NCBI GenBank assembly: GCA_027067055.1
Contig: JAMOMK010000114.1
Location: 62,001 to 126,000, forward strand
Length of the DNA stretch: 64,000 nucleotides
Direction of reading: 5' to 3'
Origin: Lysobacterales bacterium
GTDB taxonomy: Bacteria; Pseudomonadota; Gammaproteobacteria; Xanthomonadales; Marinicellaceae
A model generated the notes under the pieces. It did no database searches. It was not told the origin of the DNA and saw only the letters and a list, made by a program, of their open reading frames with translations. Made by a program: the position numbers and the translations under genes. Below are positions 21,798 through 25,395 of the stretch, piece by piece; position 1 is the first letter of the stretch, and every line of letters starts with the position of its first letter.

Positions 21798-22925
21798 ATG
21801 AATAACCATAAATCTAAAATTGCATTAATGTTGCCCGGTGGTGGAGCGCGTGGTTCATACCAAGTGGGTGTGATGAAAGGTATTATGGAATTATTGCCTG
21901 AAAATAAAGCACCTTTTCCTATCATAACAGGGACTTCTGCCGGTGCGATTAATGCGGTTGTCTTGGCTTGCTATGCAGATGATATAAAATACGGTACGCA
22001 CCGACTCGAAAAATTTTGGACTACTTTACAGTGCTCTGATGTTTATCGAACCGATGGCTGGATGATAGCTAAAACCATGGCAAAAGTCTTTGGTTCCATG
22101 TTTTTTGGTAAATTGGGGGTTAAGGCTCCACGTTCTTTGTTGGATAATGAGCCACTGTTTCATTACTTATCAAAAACAATGCATTTACCACAAATACAAA
22201 AGTGTATAGAGAAAGGGAGTTTAGATGGCTTAGCCATTACTGCATCTTCTTATGATACCTCAGTTGCCAAAAGTTTTTTTCAAGCTAAAGAATTTATTCA
22301 TGCATGGAATCGTACCCGCAGGATTGGAATTCCACAAAAAATAGCTGTTGAACATATTTTGGCATCTGCGGCATTGCCTTTTCTGTTTCCTGCTCAACTC
22401 ATTGGCAAAGAATATTATGGAGATGGAGGATTGCGCATGAGTGCGCCTTTGTCACCAGCTATTCATTTGGGAGCAGAAAAAATTCTAGTCATAGGTACGC
22501 GTGATGAAAGTCCGATACCTACGCCGACAGAAGTTCCCGAATACCCTTCAATGGGCGAGTTGGGTGGTTATATGTTGGATACTATATTTATGGATACCTT
22601 AATGGCGGATTTGTCTCGGTTAAGGCGAATTAATCGAACTCTTGAATTAATTAGTGATGAAAATAAAACTAAAACGGATTTACAAAAACTAGATACACTA
22701 ATTATCAAGCCCAGTGTTGATGTGAGAGATATAACAAAAGAACACGCAAAGGATATTCCGGCTCCTGTTCGTCGTTTACTCAAAGCAATAGGAGGTTGGG
22801 GAAAAGAGTGGCGAATGCCCAGTTACCTGCTTTTTGAGCCTGGATATACCAAGGCATTGATTGAGTTGGGTTATCAAGACGCACTTAACCAAGAGGAAAA
22901 AATTAAAAATTTTATGCAAGGGTGA
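21798..22925 (+). CDS. Patatin-like phospholipase
   Basis: 375-residue cytoplasmic or membrane-associated lipid acyl hydrolase with a Ser-Asp dyad. The oxyanion loop PGGGARGSYQVGV is near residues 13-25, the nucleophile serine in GTSAGAINA near 48-56, and the catalytic aspartate in YGDGGLRMSAP near 210. Full length with no signal peptide. Divergent from the GDPD-like gene by only ~58 bp, suggesting shared phospholipid turnover. The gene ends at the left border of the DnaA-box cluster. Confidence 0.88.
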   Translation: MNNHKSKIALMLPGGGARGSYQVGVMKGIMELLPENKAPFPIITGTSAGAINAVVLACYADDIKYGTHRLEKFWTTLQCSDVYRTDGWMIAKTMAKVFGSMFFGKLGVKAPRSLLDNEPLFHYLSKTMHLPQIQKCIEKGSLDGLAITASSYDTSVAKSFFQAKEFIHAWNRTRRIGIPQKIAVEHILASAALPFLFPAQLIGKEYYGDGGLRMSAPLSPAIHLGAEKILVIGTRDESPIPTPTEVPEYPSMGELGGYMLDTIFMDTLMADLSRLRRINRTLELISDENKTKTDLQKLDTLIIKPSVDVRDITKEHAKDIPAPVRRLLKAIGGWGKEWRMPSYLLFEPGYTKALIELGYQDALNQEEKIKNFMQG

Positions 22926-23664
22926 GTGGTAAATGTAAAATACAAGACCTTAGCCCTAACTCTTGATGAAAAGTTTATCAAATTGGTGTAAGTCATTGTT
23001 TTATAAAAGCTATGCGACTTATCCACAGAGCCTGTGGATAAGTCTGTGCATAACTCTATTTGTTTCATGGTTAGGGCGAGTAAATACAAGGCTTATTATC
23101 ATATTGGTTAATTATTGACCAATATAATAATAGTTATTTAAATCAATGGGTTGCATGAAAAGAAGAGTTCTTTATACACAGAACCTATGAAAAATAACTA
23201 AAAAAAGTTCTTGACACGCTCTAGTGTGTATAAATCAATAACATAGCGGAATTATCTTATGTTTTAAATGAATATATATGGCTATGTTAAAATTAAAACC
23301 ACTCGAAAAAGGAAAATTAAAAAACCTTACAATTACTCAATAAATTATGGATAATAGAGTTATGAGTAATGAAATTAGTAATGCAATAAAAAATAAAATC
23401 CCCATTCTAGTTGATTTAACACCAGTAAGAGGCGTGGTTTGCGTGAAGATATAGTCAATAAAAATGGTGGTTGGAAAGGGGGGAGCAGAAAAATTGCAAA
23501 TATTAAAATCCTTTGTGGAATTTGTTATGATAAAGCAAAGCTTCTAAATTTCCCCACAAGGAAATCATGGTGGAAATTTTGGTAATAAGAAAAACTTCGT
23601 GTAACTCTGCGCCTCCTTTGCGAACCTTGTACGGTTAAAACCATCACAAATTCAAAAGCAATGG
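22926..23664. other. 739-bp non-coding region: candidate replication origin (DnaA-box cluster)
   Basis: No gene longer than a 35-codon ORF (23347-23454) is supported. Five perfect TTATNCACA boxes occur: 23019-23027 (+), 23033-23041 (-), 23045-23053 (-), 23172-23180 (+), 23225-23233 (-). Boxes 1 and 2 form a perfect 13-bp inverted repeat around AGC. An AT-rich stretch (23091-23150) contains ATATTGGT/ACCAATAT arms at 23101-23125. Beyond 23240 the sequence is A-rich, and residues readable in two frames after 23400 look like a decayed short ORF. Flanked by patatin and opp genes, not by dnaA or mnmG. It could instead be a DnaA-titration or DnaA-regulated site. Confidence 0.6.
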
Positions 23665-25395
23665 CTACAAAACCAAATCTTTGGGTATGCCTTTAGGAAT
23701 CGCATCAAGTAGGCGTTTGGTGTATTCTCTTTGTGGGTTTTTGTAGATATTTTCGGCGGTATCTAACTCGACTATTTTGCCTTGGTTCATGACACCAACT
23801 CGATCAGATATGTAGTTTACCACCGATAAATCATGCGAGATAAAAATGTAAGTAAGGTGCATGTCTTGTTGCAAGTCTTGCAGGAGATTTAATACTTGGG
23901 CTTGTACTGACACATCTAGGGCAGAAACCGATTCATCACAGATGATAAAATCAGGCTCAACTCCGATAGCACGGGCGATACAAATTCTTTGGCGTTGCCC
24001 GCCTGAAAACTCGTGTGGATAGCGGTTAAGGTGTTGAGGTTTTAAATCAACCTTTTGCATCAACTCTTGGGCGCGAGCAAAGCGATCTTTCTTGTGTTCT
24101 CCAATCTTGTGTATTGCCATCGGTTCGGTAATTATATCGCCAATCGTCATACGTGGATTTAAAGATGAGTAAGGATCTTGGAAGATGATTTGCATGCGTG
24201 AACGCATCTTTCGCATGGCTTCTTTATTCAAATCCATTAGGTTGACACCATCATAAATGACATCACCACTGGTGGCTTTTTGTAAGCGTAAGATGGTACG
24301 GCCCAATGTGGTTTTACCACAACCTGATTCGCCAACTAGTCCCAAGGTTTCGCCTTTGTGTACGACAAAACTGACATCATCAACGGCTTTGACATGACGT
24401 TGAACCCGCCCAAACAATCCGCCTTTAACTGGAAACCATGTTTTTAAATTTTTAACTTCTAATAAAACAGGGTGAGAATCTATATCGGATTTATCAGGTT
24501 TAACCATGGGTTCAAATTTTTCAGGAGGTACTTGTTTTTCGGTACCGTCTTCTTGCATATAATCTGAAACGGTTAATAAGCGTTTTGGGTTGCCATGCAG
24601 CATCGGGCGACATGCCATTAGCCCCTTGGTGTAAGGGTGTTTGGCATTTTTAAATATTGTATTAACATGGTTTTGTTCGACGATGTTAGAACGGTACATC
24701 ACCACCACATCATCGGCTAAATCGGCAATAACACCCAAATCATGGGTGATAAACAACATGCCCATGTCGTATTTTTGTTGCAAATCTAGCATTAATTCCA
24801 GCACTTGTTTTTGAATGGTTACATCAAGTGCTGTTGTTGGTTCGTCACAAATCAATAAATCTGGCTCACAAGCAATTGCCATAGCAATCATAACGCGTTG
24901 TTTTTGCCCGCCAGACATTTCGTGAGGGTATGCGCGAATTTTGCTTTTTGGGTCGGGAATGCCTACTTGATCAAGCAAGTCGATGGAATAATTCCATGCT
25001 TGCTTTCTGGTCATGCCTTTGTGCAGGCGTAAAACTTCGGAAATTTGCGAACCAATTCTAAACACAGGATTAAGTGCGGTCATTGGTTCTTGGAAAATCA
25101 TTGATATGCGATTACCACGAATTTTACGCATTTCTTTTTCGGATTTTGTTAGTAAATCATCGCCATTAAATAAAATCTTACCACTGGTAATCATACCTGG
25201 GGGCATAGGGATTAATCCCATAGTCGCCAAAGAAGTCACTGATTTACCCGAACCAGATTCTCCCACCAAGCCAACAGTCTTGCCTTTTGGAATATCAAAA
25301 GAGACCTTATTCACCGCTGTGATAAGCTCTTCTTGGGTCTTAAATTTGACCGTTAGGTCTTGGATGCTTAGTAAAGGTGTATTTTTTTCATTCAT
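23665..25395 (-). CDS. Oligopeptide ABC transporter ATPase, fused OppD-OppF
   Basis: 576 residues holding two complete ABC ATPase domains. The first (about 8-265) has Walker A GESGSGKS, signature LSGG-type MSGGQKQR and Walker [13 protein letters not shown]. The second (about 305-576) has [16 protein letters not shown] and [12 protein letters not shown]. The D-to-S change after the second Walker B glutamate is common in OppF/DppF-type subunits. Opp/Dpp systems usually use two separate ATPases; this fusion is the YejF-like form. It is the last gene of the operon, 17 bp after the OppC-like permease. Confidence 0.92.

Follow-up and report, generated by a model that had tools for sequence, protein, structure and literature searches.

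What kind of site is a dense cluster of perfect DnaA boxes lying between genes that have no evident connection with replication: an origin, a sink for DnaA, or a sequence that acts on its nucleotide state? The question is raised by positions 23019-23233 of the 64-kb stretch of DNA analysed here (the window), which the original prediction proposed as a candidate chromosomal origin, with a datA-like or reactivation site as the alternative. We recovered all five of the perfect TTATNCACA boxes on which that proposal was built, with the same positions and strands (23019..23027, +; 23033..23041, -; 23045..23053, -; 23172..23180, +; 23225..23233, -). Both of the inverted repeats that had been described are likewise present, the 13-bp repeat GACTTATCCACAG / CTGTGGATAAGTC at 23016-23028 / 23032-23044 and, near AT-rich DNA, ATATTGGT / ACCAATAT at 23101-23108 / 23118-23125. 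The region was said to hold no genes, and listed ORFs of at least 80 aa are indeed absent between 22925 and 23665; an Rfam search of window positions 20-26 kb gave no match. The flanking genes are those originally named and converge on the cluster: to the left a patatin-like phospholipase gene (21798..22925, +; phospholipase-family matches are weak and below cut-off), and to the right a gene for an Opp/Dpp-type ABC transporter ATPase, a fused OppD-OppF (23665..25395, -). Between the cluster and the latter gene, window positions 23584-23630 hold a short interspersed repeat of ~38-44 bp, which recurs on contigs C43, C44 and C32 of this genome as well as in relatives.

The cluster had been judged far above chance, and this judgement stands. 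Across the whole genome (3.42 Mb), which belongs to a Marinicellaceae relative of the Xanthomonadales, there are 259 TTATNCACA boxes, as against 147 for the reversed pattern, which gives an expectation of 0.016 boxes per 215 bp where five are seen; under a Poisson model the probability of at least five boxes in 215 bp is ~1e-11 per position and ~3e-5 genome-wide. The density of one box per 33 kb assumed originally is too low for this genome, in which there is ~1 per 13 kb, and the correction leaves the conclusion unaffected. The 64-kb window as a whole contains 8 boxes versus 4.8 expected, a number reached in 9 of 100 shuffles; this is no significant enrichment, so that the signal is the cluster itself.

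The first three boxes form a triad. Box I (TTATCCACA, 23019..23027) is followed after 5 bp by box II (23033..23041), inverted relative to it, and after a further 3 bp by box III (23045..23053), oriented as box II. All three are perfect, and their order, orientation and spacing match exactly those of the cores of E. coli DARS1 and DARS2 (MG1655 sequence). Reviews describe the DARS core as such a three-box arrangement, and ascribe ADP release to DnaA bound head to head on boxes I and II (PMC5742627, PMC8682772). When the whole genome was searched for this triad with up to 3 mismatches, exactly two instances were found, both perfect (reversed-pattern control, 0): the one in the window, and a second DARS-like element with the same gaps just upstream of priA (G000:C114:159805-160017), in the opposite orientation to the window copy. 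The priA-linked element is likely the older site, because priA is a frequent neighbour of the triad across the order.

Were the cluster the origin of the chromosome, or an additional active one, DnaA would be expected to open the adjacent AT-rich DNA there and load the helicase, a role for which five perfect boxes, 71% AT from the core to the next DnaA box and an IHF consensus are all suitable equipment. GC skew points elsewhere. Computed from separate contigs (C114 and C71) and one sampled relative, rather than as a whole-genome plot, it is positive (5-kb bins) over nearly all of 15-175 kb of C114, the 203-kb contig that includes the window, and therefore on either side of the cluster, which lies at ~85 kb and shows no switch. 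The original prediction had placed the cluster away from dnaA and mnmG, in agreement with our finding that dnaA is on a different contig, C71, where dnaN and gyrB follow it and an rpmH-like reading precedes it on the opposite strand (dnaN, gyrB and the rpmH-like gene being named from ORF sequence and position). Cumulative skew on C71 is lowest at ~57-65 kb, just before dnaA, and rises after it; the dnaA-dnaN gap is AT-rich and contains a perfect DnaA box and an IHF consensus. The genome's origin is most likely at this rpmH-dnaA-dnaN locus. In a relative, Marinicella G012, skew along a 1.49-Mb contig changes sign at dnaA (~246 kb), which has its own box cluster, and at neither of two triad elements located 83 kb and 86 kb either side of it.

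The triad itself also sets the element apart from E. coli oriC. It is absent from E. coli oriC (best match 9 mismatches), from E. coli datA and from this genome's own dnaA-dnaN region (best 6-9 mismatches over the three), and at 30 class-level triad loci none of dnaA, dnaN, rpmH or mnmG occurs within 1.5 kb. DnaA boxes, AT-rich DNA and an IHF consensus are features shared with a dnaA- or mnmG-linked gammaproteobacterial oriC, but the window element is present in two copies, which is normal for the triad in this family, lies off the skew minimum and is beside neither gene; a conserved palindrome and IHF site explain its AT-rich inverted repeat (see below). On the strength of the skew and the location of the dnaA locus we reject the oriC reading. 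A replication origin at the box cluster is very unlikely, and we would be greatly surprised to see initiation there.

The triad is widespread. With up to 2 mismatches allowed, 254 of 298 genomes of the order carry it, as do 242 of 370 genomes of the class, with no reversed-pattern matches in either set. Since a general clustering of DnaA boxes would escape the reversed-pattern control, the gaps were freed as a test, each being allowed to vary from 0 to 15 bp (256 combinations): the 5/3 spacing was found in 147 of the 150 matches listed (counted by hand), the exceptions among these being in G465, G572 and G369. Copy number and position vary in some genomes. Five genomes carry 5-6 triads rather than 1-2 (G342, G468 and G631 of family f48; G523 and G667 of f162), and G011, a member of the same family as the window's genome (4.7 Mb, 2 contigs), lacks the triad even when 2 mismatches are allowed; its dnaA match is in two pieces in neighbouring frames, reflecting either a sequencing error or a real break. 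Triads in the Marinicella genomes G012, G018, G022 and G023 lie ~83-281 kb from dnaA, almost symmetrically in G012, and are thus much closer to it than E. coli DARS1 (~1.5 Mb) and DARS2 (~0.96 Mb) are to oriC.

The genes beside the triad are less constant. priA adjoins 6 of the 30 class-level loci; extra copies are found elsewhere, for example in Marinicella beside a TauE/SafE-like gene facing polA (named by eye from sequence), and patatin adjoins the element only in part of the window's genus, and not in Marinicella. Because the neighbours differ between genera, we rejected a link to neighbouring genes. The same variation bears on whether the element could be a DnaA-controlled promoter region for an adjacent gene, a role suggested by the position of the sister copy just upstream of priA and by E. 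coli, in which DARS1 and DARS2 occupy the promoter regions of uvrB and mutH (PMC5835720). The element stays constant while its neighbours change, and at the window copy there is no annotated promoter and both neighbours converge on the element, making it unlikely to serve an annotated gene as promoter, although a short transcript outside the gene list might arise there; as an account of the element, promoter control seems to us highly improbable.

Beyond the core is a conserved downstream module, whose distances we count from the core start. A perfect Fis-consensus palindrome, GGTTAATTATTGACC (23106..23120, centre +95), sits within the ATATTGGT/ACCAATAT inverted repeat (23101-23125) and, judged by its match to consensus, would be bound by Fis. 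It is followed by a predicted IHF site at +123, AATCAATGGGTTG (23141..23153, +), a perfect match to the consensus WATCAANNNNTTR, and by a fourth conserved and perfect DnaA box, box IV (23225..23233, -), at +207. Consensus scanning also identified a second IHF-like site with 1 mismatch, AATCAATAACATA (23233..23245, +), at +215; a perfect IHF consensus is found at +214 to +216 in eight related loci (L004-L008, L010, L016 and L018). The remaining perfect box of the cluster (23172..23180, +), at +154, is found at the same distance in L004, L005 and L006 and is common to the closest relatives only.

Among 38 Marinicellaceae elements, which are related by descent and hence are not independent draws, 33 have a Fis consensus between +92 and +98 (0.4 expected from shuffled flanks), 34 have an IHF-like site with 0-1 mismatch at +119 to +126 (0.65 expected) and 35 have an inverted perfect box at +201 to +214 (0.01 expected). 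Subject to the same dependence by descent, 28 other gammaproteobacterial elements include 12 with the Fis consensus, 13 with the IHF site and 15 with the fourth box, versus 0.41, 0.24 and 0.01 expected. Much of the intervening sequence is unconserved (with an information content of ~0.1 bit from +58 to +70), a contrast that speaks for selection having acted on the parts. The priA copy has its palindrome at +94, its box at +205 and an IHF-like sequence (2 mismatches) at the same place as the window copy.

These fixed distances help to distinguish between the two alternatives that accompanied the original prediction. A datA-like site would titrate DnaA or, with IHF, stimulate DnaA to hydrolyse ATP, so that the ATP-DnaA level falls once initiation has occurred. 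E. coli datA has its boxes 7, 2 and 3 arranged around one IHF site. It resembles the window element in being intergenic and in combining several high-affinity boxes with IHF, and dense boxes of this kind with an IHF consensus would hold some DnaA; the position of the Marinicella triads fairly near dnaA (83-281 kb in G012, G018, G022 and G023) implies early duplication, which would suit a sink. The layout of boxes in E. coli datA is different, however, without the convergent triad (best match 6 mismatches), and plain titration needs neither a fixed 5/3 convergent spacing, as seen in 147 of the 150 matches listed, nor fixed distances to a palindrome, an IHF site and a fourth box. The triad geometry is not common to both, and on this comparison we set the datA reading aside; we regard a datA-like function as improbable. 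E. coli datA acts opposite to DARS (PMC5742627).

Of the two alternatives, then, it is reactivation that we favour, since the first three boxes are arranged exactly as in an E. coli DARS core, and a datA-like site leaves the box geometry unexplained. The window triad has the order, orientation and spacing of that core and is intergenic, between convergent genes and outside oriC. Taking together the exact core geometry, its class-wide fixed spacing, the downstream module, the paired copies and the lack of origin signals, we conclude by analogy with E. coli that the element at 23019-23233 is probably (with a probability of roughly 0.86) a DARS-type DnaA-reactivating sequence that would regenerate ATP-DnaA.

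Comparison with the two E. coli sites indicates that a known DARS core design is present here in a new four-part layout. E. coli DARS2, in the rppH-mutH intergenic region, has a core identical to that of the window element in box order, in orientation and in its 5/3 gaps. In both, consensus sites for IHF and Fis lie beyond box III (for the window element the predicted IHF site at 23141-23153), and another box occurs ~210 bp after the start of the core. These parts are differently ordered, being core-IHF-Fis in DARS2 (IHF-like matches at +94 and +110, a Fis site centred at +153 and the fourth box at +212) but core-Fis-IHF in the window element (+95, +123). The fourth box is also oppositely oriented, being on the + strand in DARS2, and the core boxes of DARS2 are imperfect where the three in the window are perfect. 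Given that the Fis consensus lies between the core and the IHF site rather than distal to the latter, we do not file the window element as a DARS2 orthologue; its location is not rppH-mutH either, the neighbours being patatin and oppDF, and these differ from the neighbours of both E. coli sites. DARS1, in the bioD-uvrB intergenic region, has a core with identical spacing but spans 101 bp in all and carries little accessory DNA (PMC5742627), whereas the conserved module of the window element covers ~215 bp. As already noted for the origin reading, this triad geometry is what E. coli oriC lacks.

DARS sites help to time chromosome replication in E. coli, where DARS2 requires Fis, and by analogy with that species we infer how protein binding, looping and ADP release might proceed at the window element. 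ADP-DnaA would take up a head-to-head arrangement on boxes I and II, assisted by box III; with IHF at the AATCAATGGGTTG site and a Fis-like protein bound to the palindrome, the downstream DNA would bend and return the fourth box (+207) with its DnaA to the core. This assembly would free ADP, and the departing apo-DnaA could then rebind ATP, so that more ATP-DnaA is available when initiation next occurs at the oriC beside dnaA. The genome encodes DnaA, a Hda homologue and an HU-like protein, and DnaA, IHF alpha and IHF beta each score above one NCBIfam cut-off. A short Fis-like protein of 82 aa (82-89 aa; G000:C98:12101-12316) scores 53 bits versus the Fis NCBIfam cut-off of 99, and is possibly a divergent Fis in this family; its low score counts against the DARS reading, as do the reordered Fis and IHF sites and the different neighbours.

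DARS sequences have been described as conserved in beta- and gammaproteobacteria close to E. coli (PMC4245941, PMC5742627). Our literature search found no paper joining DARS with Xanthomonas, and none linking priA with DnaA boxes in such a setting, although most subscription journals lay outside the search and this is weak evidence of novelty. A broader reading, to which we assign even odds, is that DARS is an ancient, class-wide, cis-acting system of the Gammaproteobacteria and not a device of the E. coli group. Its commonest form would be the four-part module of three-box core, Fis-type palindrome at ~+94, IHF site at ~+122 and inverted fourth box at ~+205. This module would frequently neighbour priA, additional copies having settled between other gene pairs, and the E. 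coli sites DARS1 and DARS2 would be modified forms of it. A core this rigid and countable, present in about two thirds of the sampled gammaproteobacterial genomes, together with a reordered module, would open the DnaA activation cycle to study across many species, and offers natural variants in which the roles of IHF, Fis and box spacing in ADP release may be tested.
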